The position numbers and the translations under genes are program-made. Under the pieces are notes generated by a model that ran no database searches, was not told the origin of the DNA, and saw only the letters and a list, made by a program, of their open reading frames with translations. Below, piece after piece: positions 15,026 through 44,112 of a DNA stretch of 64,000 bases (position 1 is the stretch's first letter; every line of letters begins with the position of its first letter). Source of the DNA: a virus; the IMG/VR virus record IMGVR_UViG_3300025914_000009, positions 60,984 to 124,983 of that record; one strand, 5' to 3'.

Positions 15026-15119
15026 GGCGAAGTATGCAAATTGGTAAAGCAGTCCTCGTTGAGAGGATGGGACTAAATTCTGGGTAATGTCCATGGTAGT
15101 TCGAATCTATCCCTCGCCA
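15026..15119 (+). tRNA. class II-like tRNA, anticodon loop lacks U33
   Basis: Acceptor GGCGAAG/CCTCGCC (one A-C mismatch), D arm with GG, anticodon arm GTCCT-CGTTGAG-AGGAT, long variable arm (GGAC/GTCC, 15-nt loop) and T arm GGTAG-TTCGAAT-CTATC. A long variable arm points to Leu, Ser or Tyr, but positions 34-36 read TTG (Gln) and position 33 is G instead of U. Decoding is therefore doubtful and it may be another tRNA mimic. It ends 13 nt before the next start codon; no CCA is encoded. Confidence 0.6.
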
Positions 15120-15132
15120 CTAAAATTCTTTT

Positions 15133-34758: not shown

Positions 34759-35757
34759 ATGATAAAAGGAGCTAAAAGAGTAGACCTCTCTATTGATACT
34801 ATCCTTGAGAAGGTGAGTGAGTATGAGATATACAGATACTATATTGGTCATGATTTTGTGCTAGGAAAGACATTCTGTTCCCCTTTTAGGAAGGAGAGCG
34901 ATCCTAGCTTCTCTGTAATAGTTTCTAAATCAGGGAGATTGCATCATCTTGATTATGGAGACTCTACAAAGAGGGGGGATTGTGTAGATCTTGTTAGGCA
35001 AATGTATATGGGTATTAGCTACTGGGCTGCCCTAAGGATGATTGCCAGAGACTTTGGACTACTCCAGTCCCATGGGGCTAAGAGAGAAAAAGTATCTGTG
35101 GCAGATCCACTGCCTAAAAAGGATTACCTTATTCAGGTTGTGACTAGAAGATTTGATAGTGCAGAGCTGGCTTACTGGGCATCCTACCACATTACTGAAA
35201 AGGAACTGGAACAGAATGATGTATATGCAGTTAAGAAGCTTTATCTGGATAGAGAAAGGATAATGATACCACCAACTGATATGGTATTTGGATATCTTAT
35301 GGGTGATAATAAGGACAAGTGGAAGATCTATAGGCCCCTTGGGGATAAGCGGAACAAATGGCTAACTAATGTACCTAATAGATACATTAATGGATTAGAT
35401 AGGATTATCAATAACTGTAAAGTTGGAGTAATAACCAAGTCTAAGAAGGATGAAATGGTTTTAGCTAAATTCCTACCCAATGTAGCTTCTGTGCAGAGTG
35501 AAAATGAGATAGCTATAACAAAAGAAAATATAGATCTTATTACTCAAAGATGTGGTAAAGTTTACCTTAATTTTGATAGTGATGATGTAGGTGTACAAGC
35601 ATGTAAGTACTACAATCAGTTTGGATTCAAGTGGATTAACTGTCCGAAAGGGTATACTACACCCGAGGGCAAAGCAATTAAGGACTTTGCGGATCTGGCA
35701 AAGTATCAAGGATTAGAAGTTGTTATCAATCATTTTAAGCAAAAAGGTGTTATATGA
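34759..35757 (+). CDS. DnaG-type primase
   Basis: 332 aa. A CHC2-like N-terminal module lacks most zinc ligands (CSPFRKESDPSFSV retained). The TOPRIM domain has VGVITKSKKDEMVLAKF in place of the usual E-G-x-x-D and LNFDSDDVGVQA for the D-x-D motif. It would make RNA primers for PolB together with the helicase at 25462. It is expressed from its own promoter. Confidence 0.8.
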   Translation: MIKGAKRVDLSIDTILEKVSEYEIYRYYIGHDFVLGKTFCSPFRKESDPSFSVIVSKSGRLHHLDYGDSTKRGDCVDLVRQMYMGISYWAALRMIARDFGLLQSHGAKREKVSVADPLPKKDYLIQVVTRRFDSAELAYWASYHITEKELEQNDVYAVKKLYLDRERIMIPPTDMVFGYLMGDNKDKWKIYRPLGDKRNKWLTNVPNRYINGLDRIINNCKVGVITKSKKDEMVLAKFLPNVASVQSENEIAITKENIDLITQRCGKVYLNFDSDDVGVQACKYYNQFGFKWINCPKGYTTPEGKAIKDFADLAKYQGLEVVINHFKQKGVI

Positions 35758-36359: not shown

Positions 36360-36547
36360 TCAAAAAAGAGTACCATACTTGTACTGAGAATGATCCATGG
36401 AAGGAAGGAATGGGGCCTTGTGAGCATCCTGATGCTAAAGAAATAGAGGAGGATTATGGGAAAGGAGGAGGAGTAGCAGATGGAGATTATGTGAGATATG
36501 AGTGCCCTAATTGCAAACTTAAATTTTGGGTTGAACTTCCAAATTAA
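36344..36547 (+). CDS. small zinc-ribbon protein, 67 aa
   Basis: MENRLIKKEYHTC then GPCEHPD and YECPNCKLKFWVELPN: a CxxC knuckle plus an earlier Cys/His pair, consistent with one zinc site. Overlaps the previous gene by 16 nt. Function unknown. Confidence 0.6.
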   Translation: MENRLIKKEYHTCTENDPWKEGMGPCEHPDAKEIEEDYGKGGGVADGDYVRYECPNCKLKFWVELPN

Positions 36548-36551
36548 CACT

Positions 36552-37358
36552 ATGGATTATGAAAAGATAGCACCACAACTGGGAGACTGGGCTCCAAAGT
36601 TCAAGGAGTTCATAGAATCCCCTGATTTCCAGGATATATATAAGTTCCTGAAGAAAGAGGGTAGAAAACCTCCAGAAGGTGAAGGGAAGATCATATGCCC
36701 GGAGCACTGTAATACCTTTAGAGCTTTCAGGGAATGTCCTTTCTCAAAACTCAGAGTAATCTTCATTCTTCAGGATCCCTATCCATGGGTTAAGGCTGAC
36801 AAAGAAGGTAAACTCATATATACAGCTGATGGTATGGCCATGAGCTGTAGTAATACTGGAGTATGCCAACCTTCTCTGGAACTATTCTATCAAGGTATGG
36901 AAGACAATCTTGGAGTTCCGGTTCCCAGACATCCTGATTTGTCCTATCTAGCCAATCAAGGAGTTCTTCTTCTCAATACCTCTCTTACCGTAGAGATGAA
37001 TAAACCATCTTCCCATGGGGGATTATGGGATAAGTTCATCTTGTATATGTTTGAAAATGTGATCAATTTTTATACAAAGGGACTTATATATGTTTCTTTT
37101 GGTAAGAATGCTCATATCATGGCCAAAACCATCGTTCCTTTCCTGCACTGGGGCTTTGAGATAGAACATCCGGCTGCTGCTGCACATAAAGGAAGAGAAT
37201 GGGAGCATGATAAGATCTTCACTAAGATCAATAAGATTCTGAAGGATTGCAATGAAGAACAAATAAATTGGGTTTATGGGGCAGATAATTCCATGGTGGA
37301 TGAGGGAGCACGCACAGTTCCCAAAACAGGAGTTGGAGGAAAGGTCAGAAAAGACTAA
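36552..37358 (+). CDS. uracil-DNA glycosylase (family 1 type)
   Basis: 268 aa from the ATG at 36552, 5 nt after the previous stop. ILQDPYPWVKADKEG carries the catalytic Asp (D75), LLLNTSLTVE the uracil-binding Asn strand, and EHPAAAAHKG (H206) the DNA-minor-groove motif (usually HPSPLS). Length and motif order fit family 1. The variant HPAAAA is unusual. It removes uracil from phage DNA. A 35-residue C-terminal tail overlaps the next gene in another frame. Confidence 0.85.
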   Translation: MDYEKIAPQLGDWAPKFKEFIESPDFQDIYKFLKKEGRKPPEGEGKIICPEHCNTFRAFRECPFSKLRVIFILQDPYPWVKADKEGKLIYTADGMAMSCSNTGVCQPSLELFYQGMEDNLGVPVPRHPDLSYLANQGVLLLNTSLTVEMNKPSSHGGLWDKFILYMFENVINFYTKGLIYVSFGKNAHIMAKTIVPFLHWGFEIEHPAAAAHKGREWEHDKIFTKINKILKDCNEEQINWVYGADNSMVDEGARTVPKTGVGGKVRKD

Positions 37359-37809
37359 ATACGTACAAAGAGATCTAGAAGACCAGATTGAAGAAGAGTA
37401 TGAAGCCCAAGGAAGGGAGTATCAAAGAACAGACATTAATTCTAATAATATGAGTACAAGTCGATTATTACCGACAATTGTAGTACAGGATGTACTAGAC
37501 CTTTTGAAAAAAGGCTACACAAGACTGGCAAAAGATGACACGGGTTATGGAAGCATTCAGTATCATTATAGCTTGAGTGTTGCCCAAGTAAAAGCTTTGT
37601 TTAAGCATCCTAAACTGAAGGCTAAGAAGACAATGCCTCCTATGGGGATAAATATTGTAGATAGAGAAGAACCTGCTCCAAATGTTGCAGAGGTTCTTTC
37701 TACCGGGGGCTTTGCTCCTACACAAGACGTAGTGATATCAGGTACTGAGGAACCAGCAGAGAGTTCTCCTGCTGAATTTATACTTCAGAGAAATCAATTA
37801 TTTAGCTAA
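37276..37809 (+). CDS. hypothetical protein, 177 aa
   Basis: The first in-frame ATG is inside the glycosylase gene (83-nt overlap); 37303 and 37450 (MSTSRLLPTIVVQDV) are alternatives, and 37450 gives the best-ordered protein. The core VVQDVLDLLKKGYTRLAKDD is helical, followed by SLSVAQVKALFKHPKLK and an acidic Pro-rich tail. It precedes the ubiquitin-like cassette. Function unknown. Confidence 0.55.
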   Translation: MGQIIPWWMREHAQFPKQELEERSEKTKYVQRDLEDQIEEEYEAQGREYQRTDINSNNMSTSRLLPTIVVQDVLDLLKKGYTRLAKDDTGYGSIQYHYSLSVAQVKALFKHPKLKAKKTMPPMGINIVDREEPAPNVAEVLSTGGFAPTQDVVISGTEEPAESSPAEFILQRNQLFS

Positions 37810-37829
37810 ACATTCAAAAAACAAGTAAT

Positions 37830-38363
37830 ATGGCACGTAGAATTATCACTTACAGCACTCTTGGTGACAACATGAAAGAAGTTTTCTCTGATGCGACAAC
37901 ATGGGGGGATCTTCAGCCTGACTTAACAAGAGCAGGTGTTCGATTTGAAGGTATGAAAGCAATGACCAATCCTGGTCAGGTAACTCTGGAAAGCCTGCAG
38001 GCTGAGCTCCCTGATGGAGAATTTCAGCTGTTCATCATGCCTCAGAAGGTTAAATCTGGATATGATCTTATAGAAGATCAAGACTTGATTGATGAAGAAG
38101 ATGGAGAATCATGGAATGAGACTGATTGGAATCTGGATTATGAGAATCCTGAAGAACACATCTTTAAATCTTATAAAGATTTAGCAATTGCACGGGCTAA
38201 GAAAGCCTTTGCACTTTTAGAAAAATCTATCGGTTATTTGACAGGCACAATAAATCGTCCTGTTGGTAAACCTGGTAATGCAATACCAGCTGAAGATCCT
38301 ATTCTGGCTTCATTGAGATCAGAGGCTGCCAAGTTGCAGAAGAACATGGAGATATTTGGATAA
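37830..38363 (+). CDS. putative ubiquitin-like beta-grasp protein
   Basis: 177 aa. Residues 1-75 look like a beta-grasp: RRIITYSTLGDNMKE, helix TTWGDLQPDLTRAG, then QVTLESLQAELP and FQLFIMPQKVKSG. The order strand-strand-helix-strand-strand is that of ubiquitin and MoaD/ThiS. A C-terminal helical domain (KSYKDLAIARAKKAFALLEKS) follows, without a terminal GG; conjugation would need internal cleavage, possibly by the JAB peptidase at 39434. Assignment rests on fold-like pattern and neighbours. Confidence 0.5.
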   Translation: MARRIITYSTLGDNMKEVFSDATTWGDLQPDLTRAGVRFEGMKAMTNPGQVTLESLQAELPDGEFQLFIMPQKVKSGYDLIEDQDLIDEEDGESWNETDWNLDYENPEEHIFKSYKDLAIARAKKAFALLEKSIGYLTGTINRPVGKPGNAIPAEDPILASLRSEAAKLQKNMEIFG

Positions 38364-38371
38364 TCTAAAAT

Positions 38372-38395
38372 AGAGGGCCTTCGGGCTCTCTTTTT
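38372..38395 (+). terminator. intrinsic terminator with TTCG loop
   Basis: AGAGGGCC-TTCG-GGCTCTCT (38372-38391), 8 bp with one G-U and an extra-stable tetraloop, then TTTTC. It lies between the Ubl and E2-like genes, so Ubl would be more abundant than the enzymes. Confidence 0.75.
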
Positions 38396-38403
38396 CTTTT
38401 GTT

Positions 38404-39588
38404 ATGACAGTAAAAGAAAAGATAGAAAAGCTAATTGAGGAATCGGTTGAAGGTACTGATTTTAATGTGGTAACAGAGATAAAGGCAATGCTAAACTCAC
38501 TCTATGGTGAGGAGCGCAATCAGATAGTTAAACCATCATATGAGACTATTAAGAATAGGGCTTCAGAAGTAGGAATTGATGTGAGCAATATTGGAACATT
38601 AGCAGGTTTGACTCCTAATCAACTTCGTACCTATCTAACAAATTATGTCCCAGATGGCTTAAGTTACCAGATCATTATTCATTTCCCTGAGATCACTATA
38701 ACAAATGGCTCTCAGGAACACCTGATTCGAGATATATATGTAAGACTCTTCCTGCGTCCTAATGGTACACTATTCTCAGCAATACAAGGTATGAGGACTA
38801 CTTTCACAGAAGCAGAACTTCTATCCCAATACGTTCATTCTCATCTCCCCAAGGCAGACTTTAACTCTATAATATTCAATAACTTCTGTACAGGGATAGG
38901 TGAGATCAACCAGGTTCTTGCTCTATTGAACTCGAAATTCACATCTGCCAACTTTATGATGCTCTTAATGCATATAAAGAATTTCCTGGAATGGGAGTCT
39001 AAAGAAGGTCATCCTTACATGCTGATAGAGAATATATTCAGAAGAGACACTCGCAGAGGTAGCTATAATGGCGTTGCAGACTATATAGTTATCAAGGCAG
39101 CAGACTTGATTATGACCTGCATAAGAAATAAACTGACAGTCTCTGAAATCATGAATAAGTTCACTTTTACAGTCAGTGAAAGGAATATAGTAGCTACAGC
39201 AACTCTGGATATGGAGAAATGGATGGCAAAAGAGATGGAAAATTGGGATGTAGAGACTCTGTTTGGACACAGCTGGACTCCAAGTAACTTTGTATCCCTG
39301 AGAGATAGTGAGGGGAGGTACCACAATCTTCCCGCAGGGGTAGGGAGGTTGGTATACCAACAAGGATCAATTTTGAATTTTAAGGATCGAAATATAGAAC
39401 TTCAAATAATCGAAAGATCACAAACACAAACATATGAAACGTTCGCAAACCCAAAAATTACAAAAGAGACTTGTAAAAAGCTCTCACGAATCCTCACCAA
39501 AACAGCGCTTACCTCTGCAGGAATTAGGTCAGGTAGTGCCCTTGTTTATAGCGCCGGAACTCCAAGCTCAAATCACATATCTGTGTAG
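38404..39588 (+). CDS. putative E2-like (UBC-fold) protein
   Basis: 394 aa. After a helical lead come YQIIIHFPEITITN, the DIYVRLFLRPNG strand, then SQYVHSHLP..FNNFCTGIGEI: the pattern of beta-meander, histidine motif (HSHL) and a cysteine following a glycine-poor turn (FCTG) seen in prokaryotic E2-like proteins (HPH..FCLG). The final 50 residues overlap the JAB gene by 155 nt out of frame and look like noise. With Ubl, JAB and E1 neighbours this is the likely conjugating enzyme; Cys assignment is inference. Confidence 0.45.
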   Translation: MTVKEKIEKLIEESVEGTDFNVVTEIKAMLNSLYGEERNQIVKPSYETIKNRASEVGIDVSNIGTLAGLTPNQLRTYLTNYVPDGLSYQIIIHFPEITITNGSQEHLIRDIYVRLFLRPNGTLFSAIQGMRTTFTEAELLSQYVHSHLPKADFNSIIFNNFCTGIGEINQVLALLNSKFTSANFMMLLMHIKNFLEWESKEGHPYMLIENIFRRDTRRGSYNGVADYIVIKAADLIMTCIRNKLTVSEIMNKFTFTVSERNIVATATLDMEKWMAKEMENWDVETLFGHSWTPSNFVSLRDSEGRYHNLPAGVGRLVYQQGSILNFKDRNIELQIIERSQTQTYETFANPKITKETCKKLSRILTKTALTSAGIRSGSALVYSAGTPSSNHISV

Positions 39589-40693
39589 GGAGATCTGGAC
39601 AGATGAATGGTCAGGTATGCTCTTTTATGAGACAGTAGGTAACTTTGGAGAAGAAAACTTCCAGATAAACGCTAAAGGGCTGTTCTTATTGGATATAGGT
39701 TCAGCAGCATATACAGAGTATGATCCCAGTGATCCTGACTTAATAAAGTTCCTGATGTCTAATCCTGATGCCTTGATGATGAAAAAGGGTCATATTCATT
39801 CTCATAATAATATGGATGTTTTCTTCTCAGGCACTGATAATGGTGAACTTGTTGATAACTGCGGATTCCATAACTTTTATGTATCTCTGATTGTCAATAA
39901 TAAAAATGAGATGTGTGCCAAGATTGCCTTTAAGGCAAAGACCACTTCAGAGAATCATATAACTGTCAGTTATCTGGATCAGGAGGGAAAAGAGAGACAG
40001 AAGAGGCTCATGAACAAGAAAGAGGATGAGTCTATATATGTATACAAATGTAAGATCTTTAAACCCACAGAGGCCGTGGAGGACTCTTTTAAGGGCCGAT
40101 TTCAAGAGCTCAGAGAAGCCAAACAGTCTAAGGAAAAGTCTCGAAAAGCTTTTGAAACGGCTTATAAAGAAGGAACCTATAAAGGATTTAATGTTGACCA
40201 AAGATGGAAGCAATCAGGATTATTTGATGACGTTAAAGGATCAAGTAATCTCCCTAAGGGAAAAGAAGGGACAAAGGGCTGGACGGACGATGAAACAGTG
40301 GGATCAGGAGGAAAGAGAGCTTCAGTGGTGGAGCGAGTTGGAAATATAAAAACTGACCCAAGGGTCTATAGTATGCTCACTAAGTTACTCAGTATGGACT
40401 TCATATATGAAGGAACCCTAAGTTCTATCATGAAAAAGCTGAATAATGAGTTCTTTCCTGAGGAGGAAGAGACTACTGCATACCGTACATCTTATCAGCT
40501 TCATCTATATTGTGATGCTATTGAGACAAGAGCAACAGAGTTCTATATTGACTCTTTCCCGGAGGATTGCCAAAAGTTGCTGAATTTTGATGCTACAATG
40601 CAGAAGTGTGTTGAGATCCTGGAGACATATGATGATGAGTATCCAGAGCTTGTGTCCCATCTGACAGAATCATTAAATCTTGAATTAAATTAA
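39434..40693 (+). CDS. JAB/JAMM metallopeptidase, extended
   Basis: 419 aa. ETVGNF supplies the glutamate, GHIHSHNNMDVFFSGTD the H-x-H and S-x(7)-D zinc motif of JAMM isopeptidases. The C-terminal 220 residues (coiled-coil like QELREAKQSKEKSRKAFE, then a domain to the end) are not recognised. In bacterial ubiquitin-like systems JAB enzymes release the modifier or trim its tail. It lies directly before the E1 gene. Confidence 0.85.
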   Translation: MKRSQTQKLQKRLVKSSHESSPKQRLPLQELGQVVPLFIAPELQAQITYLCREIWTDEWSGMLFYETVGNFGEENFQINAKGLFLLDIGSAAYTEYDPSDPDLIKFLMSNPDALMMKKGHIHSHNNMDVFFSGTDNGELVDNCGFHNFYVSLIVNNKNEMCAKIAFKAKTTSENHITVSYLDQEGKERQKRLMNKKEDESIYVYKCKIFKPTEAVEDSFKGRFQELREAKQSKEKSRKAFETAYKEGTYKGFNVDQRWKQSGLFDDVKGSSNLPKGKEGTKGWTDDETVGSGGKRASVVERVGNIKTDPRVYSMLTKLLSMDFIYEGTLSSIMKKLNNEFFPEEEETTAYRTSYQLHLYCDAIETRATEFYIDSFPEDCQKLLNFDATMQKCVEILETYDDEYPELVSHLTESLNLELN

Positions 40694-40694
40694 T

Positions 40695-41423
40695 ATGTTT
40701 AAAGTCGAAGAAGTTGAATCTCAATTTGGTAGGGTAAAGGGAGCCAGTTGGTTCCCTTTGCTCTATAAAAAAGATGTAATGGTATTAGGACTAGGAGGTA
40801 TAGGAAGCTGGACAGCTCTTCTTTTATCAAGAATTGGCTGCACTTTGCATTTATTTGATATGGATAGATATGAAACACATAATATGACTGGACAGATTGT
40901 AGGGACTAAACATATTGGGGATAATAAAGCAGTGGCAGTAAGTGATGTAATATCGGAGTTTTCTCCAAATTGTAAAGTCAATTCCTATCCCCAGAGGTAT
41001 GATGAGGACAGTTTTACTAATAACATAATGATCTGTGGGTTTGATAACATGGTGGCCAGAAAAGTAGCTTTTGCTAATTGGAAGAAGAGCCTGGAAGGAT
41101 TAAGTATGGAAGATAGAACAAAGTACTTCTTCCAGGATGGAAGATTACTAGCAGAGCAGCTTCAGATATTCAGTATTTCTGGAGACTATTTAGATGGTAT
41201 ACGTGAATATGAGAGAGACTGGCTCTTTAATGATAAAGAGGTAGAGGAGGCAGAATGTACCTTTAAGCAGACTTCTCACTGCGCTGCCATGATTGCATCC
41301 CACATGGTTGGATTTTTGACTAATTGGGTATCAAATGTGGACATGGTAAGTAAGGGATTTCCTGCCATAAAGCAGGTTCCTTTCAAGTATGAATACTTGA
41401 TACCCGCAAATCTCATATCATGA
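40695..41423 (+). CDS. E1/ThiF-like ubiquitin-activating enzyme
   Basis: 242 aa. GLGGIGSWTALLLSRIGC (from G32) is the ATP-binding Rossmann motif, LFDMDRYETHNMTGQ carries the R and N-Q residues that contact ATP, and KYFFQDGRL follows; CTFKQTSHCA supplies cysteine candidates for thioester formation. ThiF-type enzymes adenylate the C-terminus of a ubiquitin-like protein. The short form fits phage E1s. It is coupled by ATGA to 41420. Confidence 0.85.
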   Translation: MFKVEEVESQFGRVKGASWFPLLYKKDVMVLGLGGIGSWTALLLSRIGCTLHLFDMDRYETHNMTGQIVGTKHIGDNKAVAVSDVISEFSPNCKVNSYPQRYDEDSFTNNIMICGFDNMVARKVAFANWKKSLEGLSMEDRTKYFFQDGRLLAEQLQIFSISGDYLDGIREYERDWLFNDKEVEEAECTFKQTSHCAAMIASHMVGFLTNWVSNVDMVSKGFPAIKQVPFKYEYLIPANLIS

Positions 41424-42145
41424 CAACACTTGATTTCAAAGATAAATTGACTGAGAATACATTCAGTTATGGTAATGATTTTGTGTATGATGAAAATACA
41501 AAGAAGTCATTTAGTTTGTATTTTAGTCGTGATAGTATCAATTACCCTTATATACTAAAGGGCGGACAGTCTAATGAGGAGGAACTTGAAGTTTCGATCT
41601 ATAGTTACCAGCTAAGAAGTAGAGTACTGAATACCAAGAAGATAAAGGAGATCATGGACAGTTCCAGGCTTCCTCTTTTATTCAATATAAAGAGAAGAAA
41701 CTATCTTCTTGGTAAAGGGTTCCTGGCTGAATATATACACGGGGAAGAAATAAACAAGATTCTCTTTGTTGCCTGTGTAGATGGCTCTAAGAGCGTGAGT
41801 TCAATGGAGCAGGTTAAGTTCTTCGTGTCTAAAGATATTTATACTGATGAACATAAAGCACTTCAGCCTGCAATAAAGGATTTCATAGGAGCTCATCCTG
41901 GAGATGTGATTATATGTAAGAATGTTTTGGACTATGTAGGAGAGAAGATTGTTTTCCCTCGGGGGGTACTTATCTCTGAGCTGATAACATACAAAGATGC
42001 TATTGTAAGAGCTACAGTAGAAAGGGAGTTTGATCTAGAGGCTCCATTAGTAGTAGATGCTACTTTTCAAGATACGACTGCACCTATAACAATTCACGCT
42101 GGTTCTTATATTGCAACTGATAATAGTACTGTTTCACCTTGGTAA
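41420..42145 (+). CDS. hypothetical protein in the Ubl cassette, 241 aa
   Basis: Coupled to the E1 gene by ATGA, so probably part of the same pathway. Contains a central domain (ILFVACVDGSKSVSSMEQV, RNYLLGKGFLAEYIHGEE) and a beta-rich end (APITIHAGSYIA). I cannot assign it; a target, adaptor or second modifier are options. Confidence 0.55.
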   Translation: MTTLDFKDKLTENTFSYGNDFVYDENTKKSFSLYFSRDSINYPYILKGGQSNEEELEVSIYSYQLRSRVLNTKKIKEIMDSSRLPLLFNIKRRNYLLGKGFLAEYIHGEEINKILFVACVDGSKSVSSMEQVKFFVSKDIYTDEHKALQPAIKDFIGAHPGDVIICKNVLDYVGEKIVFPRGVLISELITYKDAIVRATVEREFDLEAPLVVDATFQDTTAPITIHAGSYIATDNSTVSPW

Positions 42146-42151
42146 TTTTTG

Positions 42152-42159
42152 TATCTTTG
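42152..42159 (+). promoter_or_regulatory. Bacteroidetes-type -7 box TATCTTTG
   Basis: Matches TAnnTTTG and lies 4 nt before the ATG at 42164. Transcription would start at or next to the start codon. Confidence 0.6.
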
Positions 42160-42163
42160 TTGA

Positions 42164-42556
42164 ATGACAAGGTCAAAATCATATTCAAGAAACAAAGGGC
42201 ATAATTGTGAAAGGGATTTCGCTAAGAAGTTTAGAGATTTAGGATTCGAGTTCTGCAAAACCTCAAGGCAGGCAAGTAGATTACTTGATGACAGTGGAAT
42301 TGACCTTAGCGGAATCCCTCTCAATGTCCAAATTAAGTCTGGCTACAAAAAGGCCAGACCAAAGGCTGATGAACTATTTAAAGGAATGAAAGAGGTTCTA
42401 TCCAAGAACTTCCCTCCGGGAGATGGTATACATAAATACCCAAAAGTACTCATCCACAAACTGGATGGTATGGCACAGGAAAACCAACTTGTGACAATGA
42501 CATGGGAAGATTGGGTAGAGTTCCTGAAAGCTTATAAACAGGTAAAAAATCTATAA
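42164..42556 (+). CDS. PD-(D/E)xK endonuclease, Holliday-junction-resolvase-like
   Basis: 130 aa. NKGHNCERDFAKKF gives the first glutamate, DDSGIDL the metal-binding Asp, and LNVQIKSG the Q/E-x-K motif, in the order of archaeal-type resolvases and related phage nucleases. It would cut branched DNA during recombination or packaging. Has its own promoter. Confidence 0.75.
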   Translation: MTRSKSYSRNKGHNCERDFAKKFRDLGFEFCKTSRQASRLLDDSGIDLSGIPLNVQIKSGYKKARPKADELFKGMKEVLSKNFPPGDGIHKYPKVLIHKLDGMAQENQLVTMTWEDWVEFLKAYKQVKNL

Positions 42557-42557
42557 A

Positions 42558-42953
42558 ATGGGGTATAAATTATTTCTGGATGATGATAGGAACCCAGTTC
42601 ATTGTGTGACCTGGATGCATACCAGAATAGGTAGGAAGAACTCTATCTACCTTCAGAATGAATGGGTTATATGTAGAAATTACATCTGTTTTGTGAATAC
42701 CATAGAGCAAATGGGACTCCCCGACTTTATATCATTTGACCATGATTTGAGTGATACTATCTGGAGCCCTGATGAGGTATATGAAGATTCAGAAAAGACA
42801 GGCTATGAATGTGCCAAGTGGCTGGTTAACTATTGTCTCGATCATAAGCTACCACTACCTGACTTTGCCGTACATTCCCTAAACCCCGGAGGGGCAGAAA
42901 GGATTATGGGCTACCTAAAGCAAGCTGAAATATGGACAAGAAAGCAAAACTAA
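42558..42953 (+). CDS. cyclic-phosphate-processing receiver-like (cREC) protein
   Basis: 131 aa. LFLDDDRNP at the N-terminus, then ISFDHDLSD, TGYECAKWLVNYC and FAVHSLNPGGAERI: the pattern of the cREC domain, a receiver-fold family with D-D-x-R and D-H-D-L motifs predicted to process cyclic phosphates of nucleic acid ends or nucleotides. It may relate to RNA repair, fitting the many RNA elements here. Confidence 0.7.
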   Translation: MGYKLFLDDDRNPVHCVTWMHTRIGRKNSIYLQNEWVICRNYICFVNTIEQMGLPDFISFDHDLSDTIWSPDEVYEDSEKTGYECAKWLVNYCLDHKLPLPDFAVHSLNPGGAERIMGYLKQAEIWTRKQN

Positions 42954-43027
42954 TCTGGTGGATACTCCTCATTCTTGAGCTAGGATTATATACCTTTGCT
43001 GTATGGTTAATACTCAATCTCAAATGA
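42932..43027 (+). CDS. 31-aa single-pass membrane protein
   Basis: MDKKAKLIWWILLILELGLY then FAVWLILNLK: one helix with a basic start. It overlaps the cREC gene by 22 nt and the exonuclease start by ATGA, which supports that it is translated. Confidence 0.5.
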   Translation: MDKKAKLIWWILLILELGLYTFAVWLILNLK

Positions 43028-44112
43028 CAGAAGCACAGTATAGAGCACTGGACATAGACTCCTATTCCTCAATTAAGGTCTTTATTGAGGACAGAAAGAA
43101 GTATTATAAAAAATTTGTACTCAAGGAATCTGTAAGAGATGGTGATACTCCAAGTACAACCTTTGGATCTTTGGTAGATTGTCTAATGTTCACACCCGAT
43201 GAATTTGATTCCAGATTTGCACTCTCAATTTCTGACACTCCTAAGGGACAATACGCAAAGCTGATAGATGAGCTAATGAATGTAACAGAAAGATCAGTAG
43301 GGGAGTCAGGTGAAGTTACCAGAGAAATAGAGGATATGCTTGAGGAGGCTTACAATAATGTGAAATATGATAGAAATGGAACAATTGTGGATTTTAAGCG
43401 TGACAGCTTTGAGGTAGTCAAACGTAAGTTTGTGGGATCTGATCTGGAAATTTACTACAAGCAACTCAGAGAAGCTCATGGTAAAGATGTGATTGAGCCA
43501 GTAATGGTAGATAATGCCTTAAACATTATTAATGAGTTGAGAACCAATAGCATCACAGCAGAGATCATAAATATGGTAACAAACTCTAATCTGACTGTGT
43601 ATAATCAGTTCCCTATCATAGGTAATCTGAAAGACTGTTTAGGAGAAGAAATCACAGAAGAAGAATCTAAAGCTAAGTGCTTGGTAGACAAGTTAATCAT
43701 AGATCATACAGCAAGAGAAATACATATATATGATCTTAAGACTGCATGGGATAATGAAGGGGAGTTCCTGAATAATTACTTCAAGTATAAGTACTATATT
43801 CAAGCCTCTCTATATTTCTACTTAGTCGTAGAGTGGAAGAAGAAACAACCAGAGATTAAAGACTATACAGTGAGATGGCCAGCTTTTATAGTAGCTGATA
43901 GTAACAATTATAAAAGCCCTCTGATATATGTGACTGATAATACAAACATGAATCAGGGAATGAGAGGCTTCATAATAAGAGGAAAGTACTATCCAGGTGT
44001 GATAAATGCAGTTAGAGATATGATTTGGCACAAAAGAACAGGAATATGGAACATTTCGAGAGAGAACTATAGGAACAATGGGATAGTGCCAGTTAGAATA
44101 TTTGAGAATTAA
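43024..44112 (+). CDS. PD-(D/E)xK exonuclease (RecB/Cas4-like)
   Basis: 362 aa. I use the ATG at 43024, in an ATGA overlap with the small gene before it. FGSLVDCLMFTPDEF and KCLVDKLIIDHTAREIHIYDLKTAWD supply H-type lead, Asp and D-x-K motifs of RecB-like nucleases (PD-D/ExK group, as in RecE and phage exodeoxyribonuclease VIII). QASLYFYLVVEW is the QhxxY motif. It would resect ends for the annealing/recombination genes. Confidence 0.8.
   Translation: MTEAQYRALDIDSYSSIKVFIEDRKKYYKKFVLKESVRDGDTPSTTFGSLVDCLMFTPDEFDSRFALSISDTPKGQYAKLIDELMNVTERSVGESGEVTREIEDMLEEAYNNVKYDRNGTIVDFKRDSFEVVKRKFVGSDLEIYYKQLREAHGKDVIEPVMVDNALNIINELRTNSITAEIINMVTNSNLTVYNQFPIIGNLKDCLGEEITEEESKAKCLVDKLIIDHTAREIHIYDLKTAWDNEGEFLNNYFKYKYYIQASLYFYLVVEWKKKQPEIKDYTVRWPAFIVADSNNYKSPLIYVTDNTNMNQGMRGFIIRGKYYPGVINAVRDMIWHKRTGIWNISRENYRNNGIVPVRIFEN

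Follow-up and report, generated by a model that had tools for sequence, protein, structure and literature searches.

A predicted ubiquitin-like conjugation cassette in the replication module of a clade of crAss-like phages

The stretch of viral DNA considered here (the window, 64,000 nucleotides) corresponds to positions 60984-124983 of a viral record 124,983 bases long, a contig of about 125 kb. It contains five consecutive genes encoding a putative precursor of a ubiquitin-like protein (Ubl), a protein resembling ubiquitin-conjugating enzymes (E2), a JAB/JAMM peptidase, an E1/ThiF-like activating enzyme (E1), and a fast-evolving protein denoted X. All five open reading frames (ORFs) are found on the + strand at the coordinates given in an initial annotation of this DNA, and the coupling of X to the E1 gene by an ATGA overlap (41420-41423), described in the same annotation, is confirmed. 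The genes and the codons of their predicted active sites are as follows.

37830..38363, + strand: Ubl precursor, 177 residues; predicted beta-grasp domain (residues 1-75), K-S-Gly77, then a 100-residue tail
38058..38060, + strand: Gly77 codon of the Ubl, where processing and activation are predicted to take place (K-S-G, followed by the variable tail)
38404..39588, + strand: E2-like protein, 394 residues; predicted UBC-like fold (about residues 15-210) followed by a C-terminal extension
38836..38844, + strand: codons of E2 H145-S146-H147 (Y-x-H-S-H motif), conserved in homologues
38887..38889, + strand: codon of E2 Cys162 (C-x-G), the predicted catalytic cysteine
39434..40693, + strand: JAB/JAMM peptidase, 419 residues; E58, H122, H124, S132 and D135; long C-terminal region
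40695..41423, + strand: E1/ThiF-like activating enzyme, 242 residues; GxGGIGS, D55, D57, N63, K78, D117, R122 and C188
41420..42145, + strand: X, a fast-evolving 241-residue protein whose gene has the ATGA overlap with E1; possible substrate or adaptor

The reading frames of E2 and JAB overlap as well, by up to 155 nucleotides, and such an overlap is present in all 70 comparable loci. Each of the five genes is under purifying selection, with a ratio of non-synonymous to synonymous substitution rates (dN/dS) of 0.11-0.30 relative to the closest IMG/VR relatives (loci L011 and L018), and therefore none of the ORFs is spurious. Ubl, E2, JAB and E1 match the PHROGs families phrog_15560 (2.4e-8), phrog_15310 (1e-13), phrog_16107 (3.7e-21) and phrog_15670 (3.3e-55), respectively, all of which carry no assigned function. 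Active-site conservation was counted in alignments of 57-67 divergent homologues per protein (Ubl 66, E2 67, JAB 57, E1 59).

The Ubl is assigned to no family by single-sequence searches of Pfam and NCBIfam. The initial annotation had described it as beta-grasp-like and had proposed that its fold, and that of the E2-like protein, be checked on AlphaFold models; both models turn out in favour of the expected folds. The AlphaFold2 (AF2) model of the Ubl has a predicted local distance difference test score (pLDDT) that exceeds 90 at most positions in residues 1-70, a b-b-a-b-b order of secondary structure elements, and low confidence at about residues 78-110. The top 50 matches in VIA-align are all ubiquitin-like beta-grasp folds (Z 8-9), and the model thus strongly indicates that residues 1-75 adopt the ubiquitin fold. 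The sole invariant column of the Ubl alignment is Gly77 (66 of 66 homologues), which is preceded by Ser in 62 of them; in crAss001 the residues immediately before the tail read K-K-I-K-S-G.

Every phage Ubl continues past this glycine, by 63-217 residues, so that a free Gly would require a protease. The product of the JAB gene is the obvious candidate. In cr106 (L007 4363-5566; the same stretch is found in L061) an HNH endonuclease gene splits the Ubl gene right after K-I-K-S-G, leaving the domain and the tail as separate ORFs; the position of the split fits Ubl processing at Gly. A motif of the type S-x-x-E-I-D-x-M-F, possibly a docking motif, ends 30 of 89 Ubl ORFs (for example L002 4540-5280) compared to 1 of 1577 other ORFs.

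The second component, the E2-like protein, is recognised by no Pfam or NCBIfam family, and neither are the 67 members of its alignment. Isolated hits in individual Ubl or E2 members, or in small numbers of them (L7/L12, Rif1_N and others), were dismissed as chance or tail matches. The AF2 model has a mean pLDDT of 88 and a predicted template modelling score (pTM) of 0.75. VIA-align, run over the Foldseek candidate list, places UBC-, UEV- or RWD-type structures at ranks 1-18 with Z 4.5-6.0, followed by the first unrelated fold at Z 4.2; Z values below 8 can reflect a common arrangement, and the weight is carried by the consistency of the list. The best matches are the UEV domain of TSG101 (Z 6.0, 129 residues), UBE2L6 (5.9) and UbcH5c (5.4). 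Some of the 18 are RWD-like domains of larger complexes, and the three Mediator-subunit rows among them we take to be RWD-like. The model argues with moderate strength for a UBC-type fold. The H-S-H...C-x-G pattern, singled out in the initial annotation as E2-type, is real and conserved: Cys162, H147, S146, Tyr143, Gly164 and others are present in all 67 sequences, and H145 in 64, the other three having Phe.

The two remaining enzymes had been called clear and adjacent, and both are confirmed. The E1 protein matches Pfam ThiF (2.7e-17) and is the only member of the set found by standard family searches; its profile matches in the PDB include UBA5, MccB, ThiF, UBA6 and Cap2. The nucleotide-loop glycines, D55, D57, N63, K78, D117, R122 and C188 are invariant in all 59 sequences, the last of these, the predicted catalytic cysteine, being located in a C-x-x-K-Q-T motif. 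The JAB protein of the window stays under the Pfam cut-off. It has the exact H-x-H-x7-S-x2-D motif together with an upstream Glu, and 55 of the 57 family members match Prok-JAB at E-values up to 0.1 (best 1.1e-6). All five JAMM residues, namely E58, H122, H124, S132 and D135, are invariant (57/57). Throughout the set, the invariant residues are those expected for catalysis; none is lost and no degenerate copy occurs among the aligned homologues.

Several of these codons are also sites of insertion. A number of relatives have their JAB gene split at the codons for G-L-I-H/S-H-N, and L059 has its E2 gene split at Y-M-H/S-H. Rfam identifies group I introns in L031 (4151-4363), L046 (3555-3814) and L059 (2207-2438), and ORFs resembling homing endonucleases likewise interrupt JAB or E2 genes at or next to the catalytic His codons; insertions are also present in L003, L062 and L073. 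Introns and homing elements are preferentially found where a sequence is strongly conserved, and their positions therefore support the importance of the His residues of JAB and E2.

Relatives of the cassette proteins are found in Steigviridae crAss-like phages (with crAss001, DAC15, DAC17 and the PhiCrAssBcn series as cultured relatives) as well as in the Fpv1 group of Flavobacterium psychrophilum phages. A collection of viral contigs with the E1 gene comprises 88 loci, and gene order was counted in the 80 whose sequence extends 4 kb or more upstream of E1. The order Ubl, E2, JAB, E1 on one strand, following the primase gene, is found in 79 of them; the single exception, L037, differs only in that no E2 is recognised. 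A complete set of Ubl, E2, peptidase and E1, as the initial annotation put it, is thereby supported, and its setting in the replication region of a phage is borne out, the primase gene lying upstream in 80 of 80 loci. Purifying selection together with the recurring four-gene order argues that the set is not a product of chance. Two neighbouring genes provide the context.

34759..35757, + strand: DNA primase, homologue of an annotated crAss-like primase; marks the replication module
36498..37358, + strand: uracil-DNA glycosylase (NCBIfam 8e-39, under the curated cut-off)

A uracil-DNA glycosylase gene usually accompanies the cassette; where recognised, it precedes the four genes in the window and in the Fpv1 group, whereas in Steigviridae it is found downstream of X. 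The replication genes are further adjoined by a gene for a cyclic-phosphate processing Receiver domain protein (window 42558-42953, Pfam cREC_REC 7e-21). Elsewhere in the window, at 15026-15120, there is a tRNA-Gln gene (anticodon ttg) of 95 bases, which is unusually long and possibly contains an insertion.

Among named phage records, E1 and JAB are matched by 74 each, with an identical breakdown by organism, compared to 109 for the DAC15-like primase; the cassette is therefore a trait of a clade and not universal in crAss-like phages. Cellulophaga phages, for example, have the primase and no E1 match. Compared as DNA, the initial 25 kb of the window match none of the phage records. To look for a bacterial source of the phage E1, 84,980 species of bacteria and archaea were covered with a short-pattern scan, which could miss distant relatives; only two contigs of metagenome-assembled genomes were found, which are probably viral carry-over.

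The conserved E1-Ubl pairing by itself would also be compatible with a sulfur carrier akin to ThiS, MoaD or CysO. Many prokaryotic pairs of E1-like and Ubl proteins function in this way, JAB-type proteins accompany some sulfur-carrier Ubls (PMC1779556), and the best NCBIfam matches of the phage E1 are ThiF/MoeB enzymes. A Ubl thiocarboxylate made by E1 would then donate sulfur to a tRNA, nucleotide or cofactor, JAB would process the Ubl only, and the E2-like protein would be a non-conjugating accessory. We consider this improbable: a UBC-like protein with an invariant Cys is present in 79 of the 80 loci, and no sulfurtransferase, rhodanese, or thiamine or molybdopterin gene is recognised among the neighbours scanned. 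Moreover, C188 is the only invariant Cys in the 59 E1 sequences, which therefore lack the zinc site of ThiF and MoeB with its CxxC pairs.

A second alternative takes its model from the tail proteins I and K of lambda/T1-type phages, in which a Ubl with a conserved Gly, followed by another domain, is paired with a JAB protein (JAB plus NlpC; PMC1779556). By analogy, JAB would merely cut the Ubl fusion at the Gly junction, and E1 and the E2-like protein would be inactive relics. The lambda-type pair is found among tail genes and is accompanied by neither E1 nor E2, whereas the present genes are part of a replication module with replication genes, not tail genes, as neighbours. With the active sites of E1 and E2 invariant in all aligned members, maturation as the only function is very improbable.

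We consider it likely that the cassette encodes a reversible ubiquitin-like conjugation cycle operated by the phage; predicted folds, conserved active sites, a fixed gene set and purifying selection form the basis on which we infer the chemistry. The cycle would start with the JAB peptidase cutting the pro-Ubl after Gly77, which frees the tail. E1 would then adenylate Gly77 with ATP and carry the Ubl as a thioester on Cys188, from where it would be handed to Cys162 of the E2-like protein. The latter would join the Ubl to target proteins at their amino groups, and JAB would take it off again.

Several observations weigh against this proposal. No E3 is recognised. The fold match of the E2-like protein is modest and Foldseek alone, run with the model against the PDB, returns no match, hence the assignment as E2 relies on the fold ranking as well as on the invariant Cys and its position. 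In profile comparisons (hhalign) with the PRTRC cassettes of plasmids (ParB-related, ThiF-related; operon type 6d in Iyer et al. 2006, PMC1779556), the Ubl has no match to protein C. The E2-like protein aligns with protein B at E=0.063 over 35 columns, with the Cys aligned; the match (pair A7/A11) is only suggestive, since the control pairs A7/A12 and A6/A11 score 0.38 and 0.24, respectively. Finally, the Ubl tail is perhaps more than a propeptide, because its C-terminal motif is partly kept.

Since the cassette is always part of the replication module, the most likely targets are proteins active in replication of the phage genome: the replisome of the phage, X, or factors of the host, defence proteins among them. 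The genes of this module are transcribed early or in the middle phase in crAss-like phages (2023 review, PMC10136315), therefore the cassette probably acts early. A more far-reaching version, which we put forward tentatively and hold at somewhat less than even chances, is that the conjugation pathway belongs to the core of genome replication in this crAss-like clade: the virus would tag and untag its own (or the host's) replication proteins, the released Ubl tail would have a second role, and the system would serve the virus rather than the defence of the host.

Two special cases of conjugation differ in the target. In the first, similar to CBASS or Bil, a single phage protein, perhaps X, would be the main recipient of the Ubl and would be primed or blocked by it, as opposed to a broad range of targets. 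The bacterial enzyme Cap2 of CBASS provides a precedent. X follows E1 in relatives, so that the place next to E1, to which it is coupled by ATGA, is kept; it matches no Pfam or PADLOC family. Its dN/dS is about 0.2. It evolves fast, has nearly no invariant residues and no invariant lysine, and in loci that are more distant no X is detected behind E1. A narrow role of this kind is possible and, on balance, somewhat unlikely. In the second special case, the cassette would inactivate immune proteins of the host or compete with Ubl-type defences. Bacterial Ubl systems of like design act against phages, and E1 matches the E1-E2 models of PADLOC. The cassette, however, occupies a fixed place in the replication block of distant phages, unlike typical counter-defence genes, which are variable, and Ubl, the E2-like protein and X have no match in PADLOC. 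Counter-defence is accordingly judged unlikely.

With the proposed conjugation cycle, four genes listed as unknown or as 'thiamine biosynthesis' in culturable phages are assigned to one connected biochemical pathway. The virome of some people is dominated by crAss-like phages, much of whose gene content is unexplained. In crAss001-type records, the E1 and JAB of the cassette are annotated as 'thiamine biosynthesis protein ThiF' and 'contains metalloprotease domain', respectively. Such public annotation names single domains only, with Ubl and E2 as 'hypothetical protein' and the pathway unrecognised. We found no report of the full Ubl/E2/JAB/E1 set in a phage in the open-access papers searched; most subscription journals lie outside this coverage, and an earlier mention there is possible. 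Neither Yutin 2021 nor the 2023 Crassvirales review (PMC10136315) contains any of the ubiquitin or ThiF terms looked for. If the proposal holds, bacterial ubiquitin-like systems, described in recent work mainly as anti-phage defence, gain a use on the side of the virus, and the cassette supplies further relatives with which the origin of E1-E2-Ubl systems can be studied. Since two laboratory-grown phages, crAss001 and DAC15, carry the gene set, the proposal is testable, and a public data set (PXD057336, PMC12118408) already provides proteomes, digested with trypsin, from co-cultures infected with crAss001 and DAC15.

Among known systems, the anti-phage operon BilABCD shares with the phage cassette the presence of four activities as separate genes (Ubl, E2, a JAB-type deubiquitinase, and E1), in the same order Ubl-E2-JAB-E1. 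BilABCD is host-borne, whereas the present cassette is phage-borne. The Bil models of PADLOC match neither Ubl, E2 nor JAB of the window and are not among the best 25 of 32 matches for its E1; BilD is matched by the E1 of one relative only (4e-5). Cyclic-oligonucleotide-based anti-phage signalling systems of type II (CBASS, with Cap2 and Cap3) and other defence pairs of E1-E2 and JAB proteins have in common with the cassette a related E1 adenylation domain, a JAB peptidase and an E2. The phage E1 matches the E1-E2 model of PADLOC at 2.1e-12 and Cap2 in the PDB at 1.2e-8. In type II CBASS, E2 and E1 are fused in Cap2, whereas the phage has E1 and E2 on separate ORFs together with a dedicated Ubl; no cGAS-like nucleotidyltransferase is recognised among the neighbours scanned.

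The closest relatives of the phage cassette are the PRTRC cassettes of plasmids, and the likeness to PRTRC loci claimed in the initial annotation stands. Both types reside on mobile elements and have separate genes for Ubl, E2-like protein, JAB and ThiF. The plasmid order is C (Ubl), F, B (E2), A (JAB), ThiF (E1), with the same relative order as in the phage, and the Ubls share an end in Lys-Gly or Lys-Ser-Gly. E1 and JAB are detectably homologous: hhalign aligns the phage E1 with PRTRC ThiF at E=2.4e-15 over 187 columns, and JAB with protein A at E=1.1e-5 in the JAMM region only. The NCBIfam model PRTRC_ThiF scores 24.5 bits on the E1 of the window, far under its cut-off of 144.75, and PRTRC_B matches none of the 67 E2 members. 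Except for sub-cut-off ThiF and A, no NCBIfam PRTRC model, including those for ParB, protein E and protein F, is matched at this locus (9 of 10 proteins scanned at 36498-44112, and the gene set). In the E2 of the phage, H-S-H precedes the Cys, whereas protein B has a conserved downstream His that is placed elsewhere; the phage cassette further differs by its obligate long Ubl tail and the extra gene X. It works like PRTRC-type systems, yet is no PRTRC member by the features of that family. One of the plasmid loci, on a Phocaeicola massiliensis plasmid (L111 2846-5774), consists of a PRTRC-like Ubl ending in Lys-Gly, an F-like protein, an E2-like protein and ThiF, with no JAB recognised. In a small sample of related plasmid loci (L111-L122), residues past the final Lys-Gly of protein C are present in 5 of the 6 loci that have JAB and absent from all 6 that do not (Fisher p=0.015). 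Extensions that track JAB fit a trimming role for this peptidase and suggest that JAB trims the PRTRC Ubl, too.

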